Positions 6,573 to 64,000 of a DNA stretch of 64,000 nucleotides are shown here, one piece after another. Location: assembly GCA_001005265.1 (NCBI GenBank), contig CP011392.1, positions 186,001 to 250,000 of the forward strand, written 5' to 3'. Made by a program: the position numbers and the translations under genes. Position 1 is the stretch's first letter; every line of letters begins with the position of its first letter. The notes under the pieces were generated by a model, which had not been told where the DNA came from, made no database searches, and saw only the letters and a list, made by a program, of their open reading frames with translations. This DNA is from Dehalogenimonas sp. WBC-2. Its GTDB lineage: Bacteria > Chloroflexota > Dehalococcoidia > Dehalococcoidales > Dehalococcoidaceae.

Positions 6573-7559
6573 TTGCACTATCTCCTGGCCGGCCCGGATG
6601 ATTATTCGCTCAAGGTTAAGCTAACCGCTATCAAGCACTCATTGGGTGATTTTGCCATGCTGTCCATGGCGACCAGTTCTTTTGAAGGCGCTAAACTCAG
6701 CCCGTCAGAATTTCGTTTAAACGTGCAGGCAACGCCTTTTTTGGCGCCCGCCAGACTGGTCATTGTGAATGGTCTGTTGGACCGTTTCCAGACCAAGGGC
6801 GAGGATACAGGTGGTAAAAAAAAGCCAAAAACAGAAGATACTGCTGAGTTCGCCAGCATTATCCTGTCTTCGCCGCCTTCTACCACCGTCGTTTTGATTG
6901 AAAAGACGCTAAACCGTGCCAATCCTTTATTCAAATCCATCACCGACGTTGTTGAAACCCACGAATTTCCTCTTTTTGATAAACCCAGATTAAAAGAGTG
7001 GATCGGGCGGCGGGTGATGAATGCCGGAGGACAAATTACTCCGGGTGCCATCAATCTGCTGGTTCAGTATGTGGGTGCTGACCTGTGGTCTGTGGCCACT
7101 GAGATAGATAAATTGACCCTTTACGCCGCTGACCGTCAGATTACAGAGGTTGACATAAAAACGCTGGTTAGCTCTGCCCAGGAGTCCAGTATTTTCAACT
7201 TGGTGGATGCCATCTTTGAACGGCGGCTGAAAGGCGCCACCGAAGCTCTGGAAAGCCTGAAATCCGGGGGTCTTTCGGCTGGTTATGTCCTTTCCATGCT
7301 GGCCCGGCAGTTAAGGCTGATGATCCAACTTAAAGACTTGAAAAGCCTGGGTGAAAAAGATATTGAAATCAGACGGCGGCTTAACCTCTCGGCTGACTTC
7401 GTATGGAGAAAAACACAGGATCAGGCATCGCATTTTTCAATAGAACGATTCAAGGATATTTACAGCAAACTTCTGGAAACTGATATCAGCATCAAAAGCG
7501 GTCAATTGGATGAGTCAACGGCCATTGATTTATTGGTAGCTGAACTTTCGACTCAATAA
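6573..7559 (+). CDS. holA: DNA polymerase III subunit delta
   Basis: A 328-residue protein with the clamp-loader delta layout: an N-terminal segment with the Y-x-L-x-G-x-x motif (HYLLAGPDDYSL), a central AAA-like part (VVLIEKTLNRANPLFK; then a WIGRRVMNAGGQITPGA helix region) and a C-terminal collar domain. It opens the beta clamp in the replicative holoenzyme. The start is TTG at 6573 with a GAGAG ribosome binding site. It lies 67 bases past the trkA operon and ends at a bidirectional terminator. Sequence conservation of delta is low, but length, order and the GG-x-I-x-x-x-A-x-x-L signature fit. Confidence 0.88.
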   Translation: MHYLLAGPDDYSLKVKLTAIKHSLGDFAMLSMATSSFEGAKLSPSEFRLNVQATPFLAPARLVIVNGLLDRFQTKGEDTGGKKKPKTEDTAEFASIILSSPPSTTVVLIEKTLNRANPLFKSITDVVETHEFPLFDKPRLKEWIGRRVMNAGGQITPGAINLLVQYVGADLWSVATEIDKLTLYAADRQITEVDIKTLVSSAQESSIFNLVDAIFERRLKGATEALESLKSGGLSAGYVLSMLARQLRLMIQLKDLKSLGEKDIEIRRRLNLSADFVWRKTQDQASHFSIERFKDIYSKLLETDISIKSGQLDESTAIDLLVAELSTQ

Positions 7560-7599
7560 CTCCAATGTTGTTAGCGTATTTTGGCTGCATAATAAAAAA

Positions 7600-7628
7600 A
7601 GTGGAGCCAATAAGGCTCCACTTTTTTT
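7600..7628. terminator. Bidirectional terminator between holA and rdhB
   Basis: The perfect 9-bp stem AGTGGAGCC/GGCTCCACT has an AATAA loop and is flanked by A7 on the left and T7 on the right. It can terminate both holA (plus) and the rdhB-like gene (minus). Confidence 0.92.
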
Positions 7629-7649
7629 CGATATTAAATTTTCCGGGAA

Positions 7650-7919
7650 TTAGGCGGCCTTGTGGCGGATGACCAGCTGCCAGGTTACGGCCAGCAGGAT
7701 CAAGGCGGGCAGGCCGGTGATCAGAAGGAACATATTGGCGGCGGTGGGTTCAAGCTCAGCCTGAGAGCCGAAGTAATTCTGGATGGTGAAAAGAAGCAGG
7801 GCCAAGCCAATGATACCGATGATCCATTCGTACCATTTCATGCTGATCCCCTTGCCCTTCATGGCACTGACCAGCCAGATGAGCGCCGCGCCGATGATAA
7901 GACCGATTACCAACCACAT
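7650..7919 (-). CDS. rdhB: Reductive dehalogenase membrane anchor (RdhB), orphan
   Basis: An 89-residue hydrophobic protein with three predicted membrane helices (about residues 1-20, 29-47 and 60-84). The central WYEWIIGIIGLALLLFTIQN block, the following EPTAANMF and the GLPALILLAV helix match what I know of RdhB proteins, which anchor the catalytic corrinoid/iron-sulfur subunit RdhA to the outer face of the cytoplasmic membrane. RdhB is normally encoded directly after rdhA. Here the upstream gene is tgt and no rdhA is in the window. The gene has its own near-perfect promoter (7970-7998), an AGGAGG ribosome site and a terminator, so it looks like an expressed stand-alone unit rather than debris. 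Confidence 0.88.
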   Translation of the reverse strand: MWLVIGLIIGAALIWLVSAMKGKGISMKWYEWIIGIIGLALLLFTIQNYFGSQAELEPTAANMFLLITGLPALILLAVTWQLVIRHKAA

Positions 7920-7969
7920 AGTTCTGAGTCCTCCTTACTATTTCCTTATTATTCCCTAACTATTGGCTT

Positions 7970-7998
7970 ATTATAGGGGGCTTTTAGCCTGGTGTCAA
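7970..7998 (-). promoter_or_regulatory. Consensus sigma70 promoter of orphan rdhB
   Basis: Minus strand TTGACA (7998-7993), a 17-base spacer and TATAAT (7975-7970): both hexamers match the consensus exactly. Predicted start near 7963, leader about 44 bases with an AGGAGG site. Confidence 0.85.
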
Positions 7999-8084
7999 TA
8001 CCATGGTCTTAATAATTTATACGTAAAATCGTAATTGGCCTAAGTAATTTTCCTGAATTTATGAAAATAGATTCGTGATTGCCG

Positions 8085-9251
8085 CTAATTTTCAGCATGC
8101 CGTCCTTGCAGCCACTGCCTTTTTTGATTGAGACGCACTGTTTCATCGGTCGTCCGGTATTCCGATAGAAAGTTACGGCTAAAATCATCATACCGTTCGT
8201 TGATAATGGCGCGACGGATATCGGCCATTAAAGTAAACATAAAGCTTAGGTTATGAAGTGTCGCTAATCGATAAGCCAGGAGCTCTTTAGCCCGGAACAG
8301 GTGATGGACGTAACCGGCTGAAAAGCGGGAGCAGGTGTAACAACCGCAACCATCTTCTATCGGGTTTTTATCTCCTTCATAGCGGGCGTTGACGATATCG
8401 ATACGGCCATGACGGGTAAAGAGTGCGCCGTTTCTGGCTACCCGGGTCGGTAGCGCTGAATCGAACATATCAATACCGGCGCCTACACCCCGCACGACAT
8501 CCTCCGGGGAGCCGACGCCCATGAGGTAGCGGGGTTTATCAATGGGCAGTATCGCCGTAGTTTCGGCGGTGATCTCGATGGTCTGATCTTTGCTTTCGCC
8601 AATAGCCAGCCCACCGATGGCGTAACCGGGGAATTCTTCCGCTACCAGCCCCTGTGCTGAACGTCGCCGGAGGTCGGCATGCAACCCTCCCTGGACGATG
8701 GGGAAAAGCGCCTGGTCATCCCGTGTTTTAGCCTTCAGGCATCTAACCGCCCAGGAGTGGGTTCGAGCTACTGCGGCTGCAATGACATCGTGTGAGCCTT
8801 CCACCGGCGGGCATTCATCCAATGCCATGATTATATCCGCCCCAAATGATTCCTGGTATTTGATGGCCAACTCGGGGCTGAAGAAGTGTTCTGAACCGTC
8901 GATGTGAGAACGGAAGGTAACGCCCTCGTCGCTCATTTTTCGCAAGGGCGACAGGGAAAATACCTGATATCCGCCCGAGTCCGTGAGCATAGCCCCATCC
9001 CAATTCATGAACTTATGTAATCCGCCGTAACTCTCGACCACTTTAGTGCCCGGCCGCAGGTAAAGATGATAATTGTTGGCCAGGATGATTTTATAGCCAA
9101 TATCTCTGACTTCATCCGGGGTTAACGTCTTGATCGTAGCTTGGGAGCCTACCGGCATGAAACACGGCGTCTCAATATTCGCATGCGGCGTGTGTAGTAC
9201 TCCGGCTCGTGCAGTTGCGGGTTTTATCAAATCGAAGGAAAATACGGTCAT
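8085..9251 (-). CDS. tgt: tRNA-guanine transglycosylase
   Basis: A 388-residue enzyme that swaps the wobble guanine (G34) of tRNAs with GUN anticodons for preQ1, a step of queuosine synthesis. Catalytic landmarks: DSGGYQVFSL (general base Asp), the nucleophile segment MFDSALPTRVARNG, and the zinc site C-x-C-x2-C...H (CGCYTCSRF, then YVHHLF). The open frame continues 91 residues upstream to 9524, but that extension overlaps the HPP gene antiparallel in frame and reads as low-complexity noise. The ATG at 9251 (MTVFSFDL) gives the normal family length. It lies 8 bases after the HPP gene and closes the alaS-ruvX-HPP-tgt operon. Confidence 0.95.
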   Translation of the reverse strand: MTVFSFDLIKPATARAGVLHTPHANIETPCFMPVGSQATIKTLTPDEVRDIGYKIILANNYHLYLRPGTKVVESYGGLHKFMNWDGAMLTDSGGYQVFSLSPLRKMSDEGVTFRSHIDGSEHFFSPELAIKYQESFGADIIMALDECPPVEGSHDVIAAAVARTHSWAVRCLKAKTRDDQALFPIVQGGLHADLRRRSAQGLVAEEFPGYAIGGLAIGESKDQTIEITAETTAILPIDKPRYLMGVGSPEDVVRGVGAGIDMFDSALPTRVARNGALFTRHGRIDIVNARYEGDKNPIEDGCGCYTCSRFSAGYVHHLFRAKELLAYRLATLHNLSFMFTLMADIRRAIINERYDDFSRNFLSEYRTTDETVRLNQKRQWLQGRHAEN

Positions 9252-9259
9252 AAGACTCC

Positions 9260-9760
9260 CTAAAAAAGGTCTACCAGGTAGCGCCGCAACATGCGGCGTA
9301 CGATGGCCAGTGCTATTGTAAAGATAATGATCGCCGGGACCGCCGATGAGTCTCCGTTGTATATCAATATCCCCAGCGCCGTGGCTGCTGCCGGTGGGTG
9401 TTCGGTGCTGGTTATGGCCATTAAAAACATGGATATAGCTACTGCCAGGGCATATACAAAAACCGTGATGGCCAGAGGGGAGTTTGCAGAGATAAGATTT
9501 GAATTGTATAAAGCCAGATAACACAGGCTACCGACGATAATACCGATCAGGTGTCCGCCGATCAGCCGGCGTGGTTGAGCAGTAACGGAATGGGGCATAG
9601 TAAACACAATGAAGGTGGAGGCTCCCAGGGCAGCAACTATCACTGCCTGAGTCAGACTTTCAATAAAGAACAGGATAATAAATAATGCGACCAGCGCAAG
9701 GAGGCTCTGGACTATGTACGGTCTGGGATTCTTTTTAAAATGAGGATCAATCAGTTCCAT
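9260..9760 (-). CDS. HPP family integral membrane protein
   Basis: A 166-residue protein with about five predicted membrane helices and the defining EHPPAAATAL motif near residue 119. HPP proteins have been linked to nitrite transport in plants and cyanobacteria; their role in anaerobic bacteria is unknown. The N terminus (DPHFKKNPRPYIVQ) is cytosolic. It sits between ruvX (6 bases) and tgt (8 bases) on the minus strand, so it shares their transcript, though no functional link to them is evident. Confidence 0.85.
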   Translation of the reverse strand: MELIDPHFKKNPRPYIVQSLLALVALFIILFFIESLTQAVIVAALGASTFIVFTMPHSVTAQPRRLIGGHLIGIIVGSLCYLALYNSNLISANSPLAITVFVYALAVAISMFLMAITSTEHPPAAATALGILIYNGDSSAVPAIIIFTIALAIVRRMLRRYLVDLF

Positions 9761-52794: not shown

Positions 52795-52823
52795 TTGACA
52801 TAGCGGGCAATCAATCCTATTAT
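52795..52823 (+). promoter_or_regulatory. Promoter of the methyltransferase-cyclase-prenyltransferase operon
   Basis: TTGACA (52795-52800), a 17-base spacer and TATTAT (52818-52823). The leader to the first ATG is about 107 bases. Confidence 0.8.
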
Positions 52824-52937
52824 TTAGTACTATTTATAACGCTGACGCAACTTTAATTTTAATATAAGCGCGGTTTTATATTTCTAAAAGCTGTGGTATT
52901 TCCAAGTTGCTGATTTTGGGATAATTAAGGAGTGTTC

Positions 52938-53702
52938 ATGGAGACAATAGCGCCGGTGAAAGATCCGGGTTTCGATTCAGAAGAAGCCAATAAACGCAAG
53001 AAATACATGGTTGACTTGTTTGTGGTACAGGCCAAAAATTATGACTTTCATGATGATATTTATGGTTTGTACGCTCACCGGCTATGGGTACGTACCATGG
53101 TCAAGATTATTGAGCGTTTCATGAAAGGTAAAAAGCACGCCGATATGTTGGATATGGGCTGTGGCACTGGTTTTGTGACCTACAACGTTGCCAAGAAACT
53201 GCCCAATATCGATATTGAATCCTTTGACCTGTCGCCGGATATGATCAATGTGGCCAAACAACGTTATGAAAAAGGTTTTAAAGGCCGCAAGATAAAGTTC
53301 TGGGTGGCCGATGCTGAAGTTCCTTTTGGCAATGCCAAGTATGATATTGTAACCACCTCCTTTGCCTATCGTAACTTTGCCAATAAGCATCTGGCGACCA
53401 GGAATGTGTTTAACGCCCTTAAGCCGGGCGGTATATTCATCATACAGGATTTGACCAAACCTGAACGGCAGCCGATGAAAGGGCTGTACGCTTTTTATAT
53501 GAAATTTATACTCCCGATTTTTGCCGGGATCCTCGGCACTGAAAAAACAGCTGCTGGATGGCTTAAGAAGAGCACAGATATGATGCCGACTAACTCACAA
53601 CTGCAGAAGATTCTTGAAGACAGCGGCATGACAAATTGTTATTACAAGAGCCTTTCGGGCGGAATCGCCTGCATTATAGTCGGATTCAAACCGGAGGTTT
53701 AG
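52938..53702 (+). CDS. UbiE/MenG-like methyltransferase 1
   Basis: A 254-residue class I SAM-dependent methyltransferase. Motif I is LDMGCGTGFVTYN; post-I SFDLSP; the UbiE-type signature is AYRNFANKHLATRNVFNALKPGG followed (separately) by LTKPERQPMKGLYAFYMKFILP. The last element, GIACIIVGFK, matches the C terminus of quinone C-methyltransferases. The first 45 residues (DPGFDSEEANKRKKYMVDLF) are shared with the next gene. The start is ATG 52938 with AAGGAG. First gene of the five-gene operon; 2 bases to its paralogue. Confidence 0.88.
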   Translation: METIAPVKDPGFDSEEANKRKKYMVDLFVVQAKNYDFHDDIYGLYAHRLWVRTMVKIIERFMKGKKHADMLDMGCGTGFVTYNVAKKLPNIDIESFDLSPDMINVAKQRYEKGFKGRKIKFWVADAEVPFGNAKYDIVTTSFAYRNFANKHLATRNVFNALKPGGIFIIQDLTKPERQPMKGLYAFYMKFILPIFAGILGTEKTAAGWLKKSTDMMPTNSQLQKILEDSGMTNCYYKSLSGGIACIIVGFKPEV

Positions 53703-53704
53703 GG

Positions 53705-54472
53705 ATGGCAGCGCAAACAGCGGAGAAACACCTGGTGGATCCGGGTTTTGAATCTGAGGCGGCTAAAAAACGCAAGGCATACATGCTTGAGCTTTTTGGT
53801 TACCAGGCACCAAAATACGATCTCCACGATGATATCATTGGTATGGGCATCCATCGCCGGTGGGTTAAAGACGTGCTTAAGATCATTGGTCATTATAAAA
53901 AAGACAAAGATAAACTGAAGATGCTGGATCTGGCCTGCGGCACCGGCTTTGTCACCTTTAATACGGCGCGTAACTTTAACGATATTGAGATAGATGCTTT
54001 TGACCTGGTACCAGAGATGGTGGGGGTTGCAAAAAAACGCCACGCCAAGAGTTTCAAGGAGCGAAAAATCAATTTTTGGGTGGGTGATTCCGAGGTGCCT
54101 TACGGCGAGAACAAGTATGATATCATCACCACCTGTTTTGCTTTCCGCAATTTCGCCAATAAAAATCTGGCGGCACAGAATGTTTACCAGGCGCTCAAAC
54201 CTGGCGGCATATTCATCATTCAGGATATGACCAAGCCGGAAAGACAACCGCTGCGCGGATTATACCTTTTTGCGTTAAAATACCTGCTGCCTGTCGCCGG
54301 AACTATTCTGGGTACGGCTAAGGGGTCACCGCGTTATCTCTATAACTCAGTGATGCTTTTACCCAAGAACACTGATATCGCACGCATTATGACCGACAAC
54401 GGATTGGTTGATGTGTGGCATCGCTACCAGAGCGGCGGTATGGGCACCGTAGTTGTAGGTTACAAAAGATGA
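53705..54472 (+). CDS. UbiE/MenG-like methyltransferase 2
   Basis: A 255-residue paralogue of the preceding protein, with the same N-terminal DPGFESEAAKKRKAYMLELF, motif I LDLACGTGFVTFN, FRNFANKNLAAQNVYQALKPGG and TKPERQPLRGLYLFALKY. The two are clearly tandem duplicates that have diverged, which suggests two successive methylations or a heterodimer. The ATG at 53705 follows GGAGG in the end of the previous gene; its own stop overlaps the cyclase ATG (ATGA). Confidence 0.88.
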   Translation: MAAQTAEKHLVDPGFESEAAKKRKAYMLELFGYQAPKYDLHDDIIGMGIHRRWVKDVLKIIGHYKKDKDKLKMLDLACGTGFVTFNTARNFNDIEIDAFDLVPEMVGVAKKRHAKSFKERKINFWVGDSEVPYGENKYDIITTCFAFRNFANKNLAAQNVYQALKPGGIFIIQDMTKPERQPLRGLYLFALKYLLPVAGTILGTAKGSPRYLYNSVMLLPKNTDIARIMTDNGLVDVWHRYQSGGMGTVVVGYKR

Positions 54473-55575
54473 AGAGTGAGACAGCTGAATTGAGGACTCT
54501 GAAGTATGATATTGGAGGCGGGCGTTTTCGCCCCATCTATATCGGCCGGGATATTATTGGCCAATTATCTGAATGCGCAAGAACGCTGGAAGCGGACAAG
54601 TTTTTCATTATTACCGACGATAATGTCGCCGGTGTGTTTCTGGATGAGATCGAAGCCGAACTGTCAAAAGTTGCCGAGACTCATGCCTTTATCTTTCCTG
54701 CCGGAGAACAGTCAAAAACGCTTTCAACGTTAGAGTCGCTAGGTGCCAAAGTGCTGGATGCGCGGGCTACCAAATCCAGTGTTGTGGTCTGTCTGGGGGG
54801 TGGCGTCGTCGGCAATCTAGGTGGGCTTTTAGCCGCCCTGCTTTTCCGTGGCATACGCTTTTTCCACGTGCCGACAACAATGGTGGCGCAGATAGATTCG
54901 GCTATCGGTCAAAAACAGGCGGTTAACTATAAACGCGGTAAAAACCTCTTTGGTCAATACTACCCGCCAGAGTTTGTTTTTATTGACTTTGCTTTTTTAA
55001 GAAAGTTACCTCAGCGCCAGATCAAGGCTGGTCTGGCCGAATCGGTTAAACACGGCCTTTGCCAGGAAGAAAGTTTCTTTGAGTTTATCAACCAGCATGC
55101 CCCCGATTTTTCCTGGGAAGATATTGAATATATCTCACAACATACGATTGAACTTAAGCTGGAACTGCTGGTCATTGACCCGTATGAAGGCAAGCTGGAC
55201 CCACAACTGGAATTGGGTCACACCATCGGTCACGCCTTGGAAATCCGCAAGAACGGGCAATTATTACATGGTGAAGCTATTGCCATCGGTATGACCGTTG
55301 AAGCCAAGATATCGGTGGCTCTGGGTTTTATGTCTCCTGAACTGGCAGCCCGGATTGAAGCTATATTTAAGAAGATTGGTCTACCGACCCGTATTCCATC
55401 CGATATCTCAATAAATGAAATACTTGAAACCCTTACTTTCGACAACAAACGGCGCACTGCCATTAATGATTTTTTCCTGCTGGAATCGTTCGGCTGTTTC
55501 CACAAAGAAAATGGCAGAATAGCGTGCAAGGTGGTTGAACCACGGTTGAGGGAAGTTCTTGAGAGCGCTTACTAG
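54469..55575 (+). CDS. Sugar-phosphate cyclase, DHQS/2-deoxy-scyllo-inosose synthase-like
   Basis: A 368-residue NAD-dependent cyclase of the dehydroquinate synthase superfamily. Zinc ligands are in place (E191 in AGLAESVKHG, H251 in LGHTIGHALE, H267 in LLHGEA), as is the lysine K194. Diagnostic loops differ from AroB: GGGVVGNLGG has Asn where AroB has Asp, and DSAIGQKQAVN replaces DSSVGGKTGVN. KQAVN and GGGV-x-GN are as I know them from 2-deoxy-scyllo-inosose synthases, which cyclise glucose-6-phosphate. The ATG overlaps the methyltransferase stop; the prenyltransferase starts inside its last codons. Substrate is inferred, not shown. Confidence 0.82.
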   Translation: MKSETAELRTLKYDIGGGRFRPIYIGRDIIGQLSECARTLEADKFFIITDDNVAGVFLDEIEAELSKVAETHAFIFPAGEQSKTLSTLESLGAKVLDARATKSSVVVCLGGGVVGNLGGLLAALLFRGIRFFHVPTTMVAQIDSAIGQKQAVNYKRGKNLFGQYYPPEFVFIDFAFLRKLPQRQIKAGLAESVKHGLCQEESFFEFINQHAPDFSWEDIEYISQHTIELKLELLVIDPYEGKLDPQLELGHTIGHALEIRKNGQLLHGEAIAIGMTVEAKISVALGFMSPELAARIEAIFKKIGLPTRIPSDISINEILETLTFDNKRRTAINDFFLLESFGCFHKENGRIACKVVEPRLREVLESAY

Positions 55576-56485
55576 TCCGGCACCGGTGCCTTTCACCTAT
55601 TGGTCACAAGCGGCACGTCTGAAATTTTTACCCCAGGGTGTTCTGCCGGTGATTATTGGCGGGGTGGCGGCTTATACAGTTGGTTTTTTCAACCCAATCC
55701 ATTTCATTATTGCCTTTATGGCTGCGGCGGCAGTCCAGATTGGGCTAACCATGTTTAACGATACCCTGGATTTTAAGTACGGCACCGACCGATGTACTGA
55801 TAGGTTGAAGAACCCTTTTTCCGGTGGTTCCGGTGTACTCGCCTCTGGCTGCATCAAACCAAGGCAAGCGATGACGGTCATTATCGGCCTGTATCTTGTG
55901 GCATTTATTGCCGCGGTTTATTTTGCCTTTGCTGTCGGGCTATGGAGTCTGGGGCTTGCCGTAATCGGTGCCGCCATCTCAATCGCTTATTCTGCCAAAC
56001 CGTTCCGGTTGGCTTATCGCGGCTTGGGAGAAGTGGCTATGATGCTCGGTTACGGACCGATAGTGACCGGCTGGAGTTATTATATCCATACCGGTAATCT
56101 TACACCGGAAGTACTGTTAATCGGTCTCATCCCGGGCCTTTCGATGTGGACGATGATCATCATTAATGAGATACCTGATTACGCGGAGGATCGTGAAGCA
56201 GGTAAACGCAATCTGACCTACCGTCTGGGACAGCGGAAGGCTAAGAATCTGTTTGTGGTCTCGCTTGGCGCACTATATGGTTATGTTGCAGTGCTTATAA
56301 TCACCGGGGTACTGCCGGTAGCGGCGATGCTGGTCTTTCTGGGATTGCCTTTAGCCATTGCTGCGGCGCGTGCGGCGCAGTCTTATTATCTTGATCCCAT
56401 TAAAGTGGCTGTTTCCAATAAATATATGGTCATGGTCTATTCAGTCACCAATCTTTCGGTGGCACTGGGTTTATTACTGAAGTGA
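55559..56485 (+). CDS. UbiA/MenA-like membrane prenyltransferase
   Basis: A 308-residue integral membrane protein with eight to nine helices and both prenyl-diphosphate motifs: MFNDTLDFKYGTD (N67-D68-x-x-D71) and NEIPDYAEDREAGKRNL (D207, D211). NPFSGGSGVL between them is MenA-like. It should transfer a polyprenyl chain to a polar ring acceptor. The start is TTG 55559 with GAGGG, overlapping the cyclase stop by 17 bases, so the two are made together and the cyclase product may lead to its acceptor. It is followed by a third methyltransferase. Confidence 0.9.
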   Translation: MRALTSPAPVPFTYWSQAARLKFLPQGVLPVIIGGVAAYTVGFFNPIHFIIAFMAAAAVQIGLTMFNDTLDFKYGTDRCTDRLKNPFSGGSGVLASGCIKPRQAMTVIIGLYLVAFIAAVYFAFAVGLWSLGLAVIGAAISIAYSAKPFRLAYRGLGEVAMMLGYGPIVTGWSYYIHTGNLTPEVLLIGLIPGLSMWTMIIINEIPDYAEDREAGKRNLTYRLGQRKAKNLFVVSLGALYGYVAVLIITGVLPVAAMLVFLGLPLAIAAARAAQSYYLDPIKVAVSNKYMVMVYSVTNLSVALGLLLK

Positions 56486-56494
56486 AGGACTAGT

Positions 56495-57112
56495 ATGGTA
56501 GAGCCAAAATTTTTTGAGACTATTGCTCCGGTTTATGACTTCCTGACCAAGTTGTTTATGGGTGGAACCTACGAAAGTATTCGCAGGCGTATGCTTAATG
56601 AGGATACTTCTGAGATGACGATCCTTGACCTATGTTGCGGTACCGGCTATATCTGTAATTCTATCGAAGCCAAGAGAATAGTCGGATTGGACCAGTCAGA
56701 TGCCATGCTCAAGCGTAATGCCAAAGTAAAACGGGACAATAAGACTCTTGTTAAGGGTAATGCTTATCAAATGCCGTTTCAGGCCGACGAATTTGACCGG
56801 ATCTATAATTCCAGCGCCTCTCATGAATTCAAGCTTTTCCCGCGTCTACTTAAAAAGAGCTTTGAGATACTTAAACCGGGTGGCAAGATAGTCATCTTTG
56901 ACATTTATCAGCCTAAGAACCCGGTGCTATCCTTTGTAATGAATACCTTTGTCCGCTATGTTGTGGAGCGGGGTATCATGTTTGTTCATACAAAAGACGG
57001 CTGGAGACAGATGTTGGAAGAGGCGGGGTTTGAGGTGCAGGAATTGGACGTGGTACGCGGTATGTATATTTTTGCCCGTGCGGTTAAGCCGCTTGGAGTT
57101 GCCGCCGGCTAG
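56495..57112 (+). CDS. Class I methyltransferase 3 of the operon
   Basis: A 205-residue SAM methyltransferase: LDLCCGTGYICNS (motif I), VGLDQSDAML (acidic post-I), GNAYQMPFQADEFDRIYN and FEILKPGGKIVIFDIY. It is shorter than and not closely related to the two paralogues at the start of the operon but begins with the UbiE-like ETIAPVYDFLTKLF. AAGGA precedes the ATG, 9 bases after the prenyltransferase stop. Likely a late step in the same pathway. Confidence 0.88.
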   Translation: MVEPKFFETIAPVYDFLTKLFMGGTYESIRRRMLNEDTSEMTILDLCCGTGYICNSIEAKRIVGLDQSDAMLKRNAKVKRDNKTLVKGNAYQMPFQADEFDRIYNSSASHEFKLFPRLLKKSFEILKPGGKIVIFDIYQPKNPVLSFVMNTFVRYVVERGIMFVHTKDGWRQMLEEAGFEVQELDVVRGMYIFARAVKPLGVAAG

Positions 57113-57205: not shown

Positions 57206-57529
57206 ATGGGATTGACATTGGGTGAAGCGATACGTCATATAGTCAACAAAAACTACGCGATAGTGGCCGCAGACCTTTTTGATGAATGTCTTGGCAAAAA
57301 ATACGGAGAAGTTGCAAAGGTGCCGGCTAAAGACAAGACCACCTGGCCGATTAAGATTGAAGACAAGCTTAAGGAAGTGCACCAGGCTAAATTGACTGAA
57401 GGTGAGTTTAAGTGGACGCGGCAAGATGTTGCCTCCGACACCTACATTGAGGTCAAACTCTGGCTGGAAGATGAACTAGGTGTGCCGCACAAAGAAGTTG
57501 ACCGCAGTTTCAAACTGGGCGTAAATTAA
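57206..57529 (+). CDS. Hypothetical protein, 107 residues
   Basis: A small soluble, charged protein (GLTLGEAIRHIVNKNYAIVA at the start, EVDRSFKLGVN at the end). No family recognised. The perfect AAAGGAGG at 57185-57192 lies 13 bases ahead of ATG 57206 and about five bases ahead of an in-frame ATC (57197), so the start may be the ATG with long spacing or a rare ATC. A terminator-like hairpin follows. It may form the end of the preceding operon or a unit of its own. Confidence 0.65.
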   Translation: MGLTLGEAIRHIVNKNYAIVAADLFDECLGKKYGEVAKVPAKDKTTWPIKIEDKLKEVHQAKLTEGEFKWTRQDVASDTYIEVKLWLEDELGVPHKEVDRSFKLGVN

Positions 57530-57552
57530 AAAAATCTGGTTTTCATTGCTTG

Positions 57553-57581
57553 CAGCCGCCATCAGGCGGCTGTCGGTTTTT
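57553..57581 (+). terminator. Probable terminator after the 107-residue gene
   Basis: Stem CAGCCGCC/GGCGGCTG with an ATCA loop; a TCGG gap precedes T5, so it is not ideal. Confidence 0.6.
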
Positions 57582-61904: not shown

Positions 61905-62171
61905 TTGATCAGGAAAGGGTTTACAGAAGAACAAATCATCACGGTGCTCAAGGAAGCCGAAGCCGGGGCTAAAATCGGCGAGCTGTGCCGTAAGCACGGA
62001 GTCAGTGACGCTACCTACTACAAGTGGAAGGCCAAATATGCAGGGCTTTCGGTCAGCGAGCCCAAACGGCTTAAAACCCTGGAAGAAGAAAATCACCGTT
62101 TGAAGCAGATCGTGGCCGACCAGGCGCTTGATAATTGGGCGCTTAAAGAGCTGCTCGCAAAAAACTTCTAG
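61905..62171 (+). CDS. IS3-family transposase OrfA
   Basis: An 88-residue DNA-binding protein: helix-turn-helix ([27 protein letters not shown] in part, then [15 protein letters not shown]) and a leucine-zipper end ([15 protein letters not shown]). The start is TTG 61905 with GGAGGG. A run of six adenines (62159-62164) just before the stop (GCAAAAAACTTCTAG) would allow -1 slippage into orfB, giving the OrfAB transposase. Confidence 0.92.
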
Positions 62172-62194
62172 AGCCCAAGGTCAGGCGGGAGGCG

Positions 62195-63019
62195 GTGGAG
62201 TTTGCCAGGGAGAATCTTGGGCTCAGTGAGAGAAGAGCTTATCTGCTTGTTGGTATTTCACCATCGGCCTATCGCTACAAGCCAAAACCAGACGATGATC
62301 TAGCCTTGCGCCAACGTTTACGGGATCTGGCTGGACAGCGAAAGCGCTTCGGCAGTCCGCGACTCCACATCATGCTTAAAAGAGAAGGACTGGTGGTTAA
62401 TCACAAACGAACCGAGCGTATCTACAAAGAAGAGGGATTGGCTTTAAGGAGAAAGCGCAAGCGCAAAGGCACTGCCGTTAATCGCATCATTTTGCCGCTG
62501 CCCGATAGACCTAACCAGAGATGGAGCATGGACTTCGTTTCTGATTCCATCGTTACTGGAAGGCGCTTTAGGACACTGACTATCGTCGATGACTACTCCA
62601 GAGAATGCCCGGCGATCGAAGTGGATACCTCTCTCGGCGGCGCCAGGGTGGTGAGCGTCCTGGAAAGATTGTCTGAGATTCGAGGCCTGCCCGAGGTCAT
62701 CACCATCGATAATGGACCTGAGTTCGCTGGCCGGGCGCTTGATGAATGGGCTTACCAGCGAGGCGTAAAACTCAATTTCATAAGGCCGGGCAAACCGATA
62801 GAAAATGCATTCGCTGAGAGCTTTAATGGCAGGTTCAGGGACGAATGTCTTAATGAGAATTGGTTCATGAACTTAAAACAAGCCCGCGAAATCATCGAGG
62901 ATTGGAGGATTGATTATAACGAGGTCAGGCCACACACTTCATTGAAAGGTCAAACACCGCAGGAGTATGCTAAGGCAGGTTCTGGATTCTACTCCGGAAT
63001 GCTACTAAAGGTGGGGTAA
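62195..63019 (+). CDS. IS3-family transposase OrfB (DDE integrase)
   Basis: A 274-residue integrase-core protein with the DDE triad: [18 protein letters not shown] and [17 protein letters not shown]. Preceded by an HTH_21-type segment ([24 protein letters not shown]). GTG 62195 is the first in-frame start, but production as an OrfAB fusion through -1 frameshifting at 62159-62164 is likely, since the -1 frame reads continuously from there ([16 protein letters not shown]). Full length and no stop codons. Confidence 0.92.
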
Positions 63020-63052: not shown

Positions 63053-63196
63053 TTATCTTGTCGACAAATAGTTTGACCATAGAATTGCAAAACTAATTAT
63101 CGCCGCTACAAAGACTATAATCACAACAATGATGTCTTGGCTTTGACTAATTGGTTTCTTTTCAAGTTTTGAGGAAATATTTTTCGGGTTAGCCAT
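63053..63196 (-). CDS. Possible 47-residue single-helix membrane protein
   Basis: An ORF starting MANPKNISSKLEKKPIS, with one membrane helix (DIIVVIIVFVAAIISFAIL) and a short external end. GGAG lies eight bases ahead of the ATG. It overlaps the last 76 bases of the RdhC-like gene in another frame. Small single-helix proteins near membrane iron-sulfur proteins are plausible partners, but the long overlap tempers confidence. Confidence 0.5.
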   Translation of the reverse strand: MANPKNISSKLEKKPISQSQDIIVVIIVFVAAIISFAILWSNYLSTR

Positions 63197-64000
63197 CTTC
63201 GTGTCTCCAATATTATATCCATGACTGCACCAATCGGACAAAGGTAATAACACCATACATTCTTGATGACTAATGCCGCAAGGAGAATAACACCTACCAA
63301 AATCCATTGTAATCCAACTCCATGCAATGTAAAAAGCGTACCCCACGGCTCAAAGGTAGACACGCTCGCATTTTTCTCGAGCAGAGCTAACGATAAAGCG
63401 AACCACAATAGGAAGTATCTTGCTTGAACAAGTACGTGAAGTAGTTTTGGGTTTGGTCGTATAGAAAACTTGCCCATGAAATGCATGATTTCTTGAACAG
63501 CGGCGAACGGACACAACCAAAAACAATAAAAATTTTTTTTAAAAATTATTGCCAATCCTATTGTTCCAATGACGAGGATAAATATATATAGTTGGTTATG
63601 AATATTTGGAACATACCCAATTAACCAAACAATTATGTCTGAAAGATTAAGTGGGATAGTCAACCAAATTCCAATAATCGAAAGAGAAAAAGCCAAACAG
63701 ACATACCGCACCCAACGATACTTTGGAATAGATTTGTGCAATCTAAGTAATGCCACAATAACCAAACCCAGCGTAACGGCTAATTCCTTTACTCCGAAAT
63801 TAAAGGCTTCTTGCTCCTTAGGGAATGGGTTCCCCAACGCTTGGGCGACCAAAAACCGTGATTCTTTGACAGCTGTGGCAACTCCGTTACTCGAGAAGGT
63901 AGCTCCAGTTACTGTGTCTATATCCTTGCCAACAATAAACGGCTCGGTGTATTCTCGAGATATATATTGATCAAAATAATTATTGGTGACCAACATTTGC
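63121..64000 (-). CDS. RdhC/NosR-type FMN-binding, iron-sulfur membrane protein, 5' end outside window
   Basis: A minus-strand frame that continues past the right edge; the first visible ATG (63996) is internal. The visible part begins with the end of an FMN-binding domain (DTVTGATFSSNGVATAV, with the Thr/Ser flavinylation-type motif S/T-G-A-T), then about five membrane helices and two cysteine motifs CFWLCPFAAVQE and CYYLCPIGAVMD, as in the 4Fe-4S-binding region of NosR/NirI and RdhC. In organohalide respirers RdhC is proposed to pass electrons across the membrane to RdhA or aid its maturation. The gene is markedly more AT-rich than the rest of the window, and the IS3 element lies just downstream, consistent with a transferred rdh region. 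Confidence 0.85.
   Translation of the reverse strand, partial: QMLVTNNYFDQYISREYTEPFIVGKDIDTVTGATFSSNGVATAVKESRFLVAQALGNPFPKEQEAFNFGVKELAVTLGLVIVALLRLHKSIPKYRWVRYVCLAFSLSIIGIWLTIPLNLSDIIVWLIGYVPNIHNQLYIFILVIGTIGLAIIFKKNFYCFWLCPFAAVQEIMHFMGKFSIRPNPKLLHVLVQARYFLLWFALSLALLEKNASVSTFEPWGTLFTLHGVGLQWILVGVILLAALVIKNVWCYYLCPIGAVMDIILETRRWLTRKIFPQNLKRNQLVKAKTSLL

Follow-up and report, generated by a model that had tools for sequence, protein, structure and literature searches.

A conserved five-gene operon of Dehalogenimonas sp. WBC-2 with a DOIS-like cyclase and its possible role in the synthesis of a sugar-derived prenylated ring lipid

From which precursor would the ring be derived that the products of a five-gene operon in Dehalogenimonas sp. 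WBC-2 are predicted to prenylate and methylate? The operon lies on the plus strand of a stretch of 64,000 nucleotides (positions 186,001 to 250,000 of contig CP011392.1; hereafter the window, in whose numbering coordinates are given) of a genome of 1.73 Mb in a single contig. It comprises the genes for MT1, a UbiE/MenG-like class I S-adenosylmethionine (SAM) methyltransferase (52938-53702, 254 residues; Pfam Ubie_methyltran, 1.3e-41), its tandem paralogue MT2 (53705-54472, 255 residues; Ubie_methyltran, 6.8e-36), a sugar-phosphate cyclase resembling 2-deoxy-scyllo-inosose (DOI) synthase (DOIS) by tree position and residues (54469-55575, 368 residues; Pfam DHQ_synthase), a MenA-like prenyltransferase of the UbiA superfamily with a TTG start (55559-56485, 308 residues; Pfam UbiA, 7.4e-31) and MT3, a further UbiE-like SAM methyltransferase (56495-57112, 205 residues; Ubie_methyltran, 2.2e-16). 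The original prediction, made from the sequence alone, had described five same-strand genes and proposed a sugar phosphate as a possible source of the ring. All five genes were found where it had placed them, and the proposed ring source is supported by the phylogeny and the residues of the cyclase.

A maximum-likelihood tree was calculated from 42 cyclase sequences, including 11 orthologues of the operon cyclase, four DOIS and the cyclase of a Chloroflexota genome from outside the class (G266). The orthologues, the DOIS and the G266 cyclase formed one clade with a support of 100/99.5, in which the operon cyclases were the sister group of DOIS and not nested within them. The grouping with DOIS stayed at 90/92.8 after removal of 45 active-site and neighbouring columns, and a clade joining the operon cyclases with the AroB proteins of the same genome and of E. 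coli was rejected (approximately unbiased test, p-AU 0.024). At the level of single residues, Asn116, Gln150, Glu248 and Asn326 were present in 11/11 orthologues and 4/4 DOIS and in none of 19 AroB-type sequences, and Glu248 aligns with Glu243 of the DOIS BtrC. Compared with AroB, all 11 orthologues have Asn for Asp116, DNK for DKK and Glu248 for the Asn that stands two positions before GHTxGHA in 19/19 AroB-type sequences. Asp244 takes the place of an Arg that is likewise present in all 19 of these sequences. In AroB this Arg contacts the carboxylate of the substrate; glucose-6-phosphate has no carboxylate. Conservation also extends to the residues in alignment columns E191, H251 and H267. 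The motifs reported earlier are real: the cyclase carries GGGVVGN and KQAVN, the prenyltransferase has NDTLD and DYAED, and the FRNFAN of MT2 reads YRNFAN in MT1. As a separate observation, the G266 cyclase (L172, 1456-2622) is a lone, divergent protein with KQALN and with Gln in place of Glu248, and its neighbours within 4 kb are unlike the operon.

The cyclase was modelled with AlphaFold2 (mean predicted local distance difference test score, pLDDT, 93). Structures of dehydroquinate synthase (DHQS) and of DOIS matched the model equally well (Z 50 to 42), so that the two cannot be told apart by fold. Among the NCBIfam models TIGR01357 (aroB) was the best for the cyclase, with 288.6 bits against a cut-off of 305. 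Each of the five operon proteins scored under its curated cut-off, so that these models do not justify a name such as MenA or AroB. A separate DHQS homologue was located at C1:446616-447563 between open reading frames (ORFs) reading as 3-deoxy-D-arabino-heptulosonate 7-phosphate synthase and dehydroquinase; on these readings the genome holds its true aroB in a predicted aroF-aroB-aroD locus, apart from the operon cyclase. The operon cyclase thus neither falls inside AroB nor is the only DHQS homologue of the genome, and its identification as AroB was rejected by the tree, the residues and the separate aroB. An identity with EboD was rejected by the tree, in which the EboD sequences form a separate clade with sedoheptulose 7-phosphate cyclases (96/85).

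The prenyltransferase was matched best by MenA models, but below their cut-offs (TIGR00751, 87.6 bits, cut-off 102.15; NF004751, 136.6 bits, cut-off 264). MenA-type enzymes prenylate aromatic rings. The matches of the protein in the PDB included chlorophyll synthase and UBIAD1, the UbiA tree had long branches and offered no firm deep placement, and no other match to the operon UbiA query was found in the genome. On TIGR01934 (cut-off 158.35) scores of 154.5, 141.4 and 73.1 bits were obtained for MT1, MT2 and MT3, none of which reaches the cut-off. MT1 had Coq5 (4obw) as its best PDB match and is 52% identical to MT2; MT3 stands in a clade separate from both. The model of the methyl-plastoquinone methyltransferase MpqE (NF052510, cut-off 335) gave 114.5 bits for MT1 and 109.7 bits for MT2, and both scored higher on the general UbiE model. 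In the third-family genome G194 (L145, 2572-4090) the identity of MT1 and MT2 is 78%, well above the 52% of the window pair, which suggests, from the sequences, a recent duplication or gene conversion.

The same question of ring source was put to the whole genome. The MqnA/D model PF02621 and UbiD had no match, and the best MenD match remained at 71.3 bits, below the cut-off of 244.2. A complete menaquinone pathway, which had been named earlier as an alternative explanation for these enzymes, was thus not found in the genome, where there is no MqnA/D, a sub-threshold MenD-like match and no UbiD. A complete menaquinone or futalosine pathway was accordingly rejected on MenD, MqnA/D and UbiD, none of which was above cut-off genome-wide, MenF, MenB, MenC, MenE, UbiC and UbiX lying outside this search. 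The genome encodes one polyprenyl synthase of PF00348, nearest to the long-chain heptaprenyl and solanesyl synthases although under their cut-offs, and a bact-PGI_C isomerase homologue which could plausibly supply glucose-6-phosphate. Other families of the order also carry a UbiA protein (L152 of G149, 6907-9630; L153; L154, 5629-7290; L155), in some cases with a fused N-terminal domain reading like a pyridoxamine-oxidase type. In L152 and L154 a UbiE-like gene adjoins the UbiA gene, and a gene reading like a SAM hydrolase is close by. Most genomes with these other-family proteins have no above-cutoff MenD or MqnA/D.

The five-gene order was kept in 10/10 genomes of the same family that were checked (the source, seven examined directly, G254 and G247) and was intact in a second family (G158, with which the Chloroflexi metagenome-assembled contig L040 appears to be identical, each having 22,762 bases). 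In two genomes of a third family (G171 and G194) the five genes are split over contigs in a consistent order, and conservation therefore extends beyond the genus to three families. Gene names read from translations place the operon after der-plsY-gpsA in one genus; in the three genomes of the other genus, from the same family, it is flanked by thiL/tsaE/tsaB-type genes on one side and by a phosphoesterase-ksgA-ispE run on the other. Because the two genera have different genes around the operon, the five genes themselves are the unit. Between the cyclase genes of the window and of G124, 183 codons with synonymous and 40 with replacement changes were counted, the out-of-frame counts for MT1 being left aside; this excess and the order kept in other genomes place the five ORFs far beyond a chance run.

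In a sample of 400 genomes of the phylum, cyclase orthologues above 720 bits occurred in the same family only, the next match having 261 bits; the two outlying operon-bearing families came from an order-level sample. A wider contig scan with generic AroB peptides gave one true orthologue (L040) among the matches listed, by which the distribution outside Chloroflexota is not settled, and no relative was found on viral contigs. No description of the five-gene operon was found in the literature searched. Most operon-bearing genomes have many reductive dehalogenase matches, and an NrfD match was present in 9/9 of those tested. This co-occurrence was dropped as proof because it follows phylogeny and because G171 is without any dehalogenase match.

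Known systems offer comparisons. With DOIS (BtrC, PDB 2d2x/2gru) the operon cyclase shares its tree position, the Asn in GGGxxGN, KQAVN, the equivalent of Glu243 and DNKR. It differs in having Gly147 and not Ser, His195 and not Asn and a KLDPQ segment of its own, in lacking a five-residue insert after DNKR and in the long stem between the two clades, and there are no aminoglycoside genes nearby. Closest in concept is the ebo operon, in which a sugar-phosphate cyclase (EboD) and a UbiA prenyltransferase (EboC) are likewise combined, and for which an isoprenoid-cyclitol product has been proposed (PMC5133447). The operon cyclase, however, lies outside the EboD clade, and three methyltransferases stand in place of EboA, EboB, EboE and EboF, which are not among the five operon genes; the ORFs flanking them in the window were listed. 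In the BE-40644 cluster a cyclitol is formed by EEVS from sedoheptulose 7-phosphate and then prenylated by an enzyme of the UbiA superfamily (PMC5133447). A cyclitol from a sugar-phosphate cyclase and UbiA-type prenylation are shared with this cluster, which was compared by its description only; the operon cyclase, in contrast, groups with glucose-6-phosphate cyclases. Menaquinone and ubiquinone biosynthesis (MenA, UbiE/MenG, Coq5) has in common with the operon a MenA-like prenyltransferase and UbiE-like methyltransferases, but here a sugar-phosphate cyclase replaces the chorismate-derived ring pathway, of which none was found, and the operon proteins are below the equivalog cut-offs.

From the gene content and order, the cyclase phylogeny, the active-site residues and the lack of the usual ring pathways at model cut-offs we infer, tentatively and as the best of several explanations, that the operon may make a polyprenylated, methylated ring lipid, a ubiquinone-like benzoquinol, with a hexose phosphate in place of chorismate as the source of the ring. 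From glucose-6-phosphate the cyclase would form DOI, or DOI in a dehydrated state. DOIS uses glucose-6-phosphate, and DOI is described as a starting material for catechol (PMC6170601). The ring would then aromatise to a tri- or tetrahydroxybenzene, either spontaneously, by the cyclase or by an enzyme encoded elsewhere. The MenA-like UbiA protein would attach the chain from the single polyprenyl diphosphate synthase of the genome, and MT1, MT2 and MT3 would add one methyl each to give the ubiquinone-like benzoquinol. Ubiquinone carries three SAM-derived methyls, a number matched by the three methyltransferases of the operon. On paper, beta-elimination of the 3-OH of DOI would leave four contiguous ring oxygens (C4, C5, C6, C1) beside two adjacent CH, which would be the ring-oxygen pattern of ubiquinone, as a matter of paper chemistry and not as a result. 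A further two-electron oxidation would be needed for the ubiquinone-like level, and double dehydration would lead to 1,2,4-trihydroxybenzene instead. The product could serve as a redox carrier.

Several observations weigh against such a benzoquinol. The operon contains no dehydratase or oxidase to aromatise DOI. In the cyclase, Gly147 and the Leu305-Pro306 pair side with AroB, the clade-specific KLDPQ segment occupies the AroB Arg position, and the clades of DOIS and of the operon cyclases each sit on a long stem of about 1.0 changes per site; in view of the stems and the segment, the substrate or product may differ from those of DOIS. MT3 and the UbiA protein are below all curated NCBIfam cut-offs, so that these models assign no acceptor to either. 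Respiration in Dehalococcoides is reported to be quinone-independent and insensitive to 2-heptyl-4-hydroxyquinoline N-oxide, without a quinone being detected in the membranes (PMC10772276). By their redox potentials, quinones were judged unsuitable as direct electron donors to dehalogenases (PMC2930330), so that the physiology of this genus speaks against a respiratory quinone of the classical kind (PMC10772276, PMC2930330). The main competing explanation, which we regard as unlikely, keeps the same sugar-derived ring but leaves it unaromatised, the product being a prenylated, O-methylated cyclitol lipid of structural or protective function comparable to the ebo proposal. It would agree with an operon without an aromatising enzyme, with the quinone-independent respiration reported for Dehalococcoides (PMC10772276) and with the existence of pairs of sugar-phosphate cyclase and UbiA protein that have no known quinone role, as in ebo and BE-40644 (PMC5133447). 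It accounts less well for MT1 and MT2, which resemble UbiE, MenG and Coq5 and thus a family that C-methylates aromatic quinols. The UbiA protein is a further difficulty, as it is like MenA and MenA-type enzymes act on aromatic acceptors.

It may also be that the prenyl acceptor has nothing to do with the cyclase: the UbiA and UbiE enzymes would act on an aromatic ring that is imported or salvaged, and the cyclase would serve to make another compound. Genomic linkage alone ties the cyclase to the other genes, and as no chorismate-derived ring pathway was found in the genome, salvage is possible. Yet the cyclase gene stands third, with overlaps of 4 bases with MT2 and of 17 with UbiA, in an order kept in three families, and so tight a linkage despite a changed neighbourhood favours one pathway and makes salvage improbable. 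Least probable is that the cyclase is a second, divergent DHQS and that a conventional quinone derived from chorismate is the product of the operon, the missing genes lying elsewhere. The best NCBIfam model (TIGR01357, 288.6 against 305 bits) and a fold equally near DHQS and DOIS structures would allow it, but the loss of the AroB-invariant Arg and the changes of Asn248 to Glu, Asp116 to Asn and DKK to DNK in 11/11 orthologues stand against it, as do the separate aroB in the aro locus and the genome-wide result of no MenD above cut-off and no MqnA/D or UbiD.

A bolder form of the sugar-derived benzoquinol proposal, which we regard as rather unlikely, is that both Dehalococcoides and Dehalogenimonas make a ubiquinone-like benzoquinone from glucose-6-phosphate independently of oxygen and chorismate, with a DOIS-type cyclase replacing the whole aromatic branch. 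The respiratory chain has been described as unique because it is quinone-free (PMC6005880, PMC10772276). The OmeB subunit of Dehalococcoides has a predicted quinone pocket, possibly an artefact in the view of the authors (PMC10772276), and genes for an 11-subunit Nuo complex are present, although complexome data did not show the complex (PMC6005880). If it exists, the benzoquinone would be a candidate partner for both. The title of a 2005 paper, cited in PMC2930330, names ubiquinone-8 in Dehalococcoides, which points the other way from a quinone-free chain and could be accounted for by such a benzoquinone; nothing was rested on the content of that paper. The host group detoxifies chlorinated pollutants. 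In it, an operon conserved across the family and devoted to a prenylated ring of sugar origin would either provide a missing lipid carrier or bring to light a new class of membrane lipid, and DOIS, known as an enzyme type of antibiotic pathways, would gain a role outside aminoglycoside biosynthesis.

The operon is compact, with junctions of +2 (MT1/MT2), -4 (MT2/cyclase), -17 (cyclase/UbiA) and +9 bases (UbiA/MT3); the overlaps or gaps of 2 to 9 bases described earlier hold for three of these, the 17-base overlap being the exception. Upstream, a consensus scan found a sigma-70-like promoter, TTGACA-N17-TATTAT, at 52795..52823 on the plus strand (11/12 matches), and position 52795, the operon start given earlier, is its -35 box. 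Chance alone would be expected to produce sites of this kind in the region, so that this promoter by itself is weak evidence and no proof of function. Downstream follows a small plus-strand ORF of 107 residues (57206-57529) without Pfam match or known family, and after it an intrinsic-terminator-like hairpin with a T tail (57552..57573, plus strand; 9 pairs, 7 of them G-C), a consensus match only. The small ORF follows the operon within the genus but was not beside it in three same-family loci of the second genus or in the second-family locus, and it is probably not a core part of the operon. Towards the end of the window, two adjacent ORFs at 61905-63019 read like an IS3-type transposase pair. 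An ORF on the minus strand at 63121-63996 has an apparent TGAT motif typical of flavin mononucleotide-binding membrane proteins, and near it, just past the window end, lies a reductive dehalogenase match at C1:250852.

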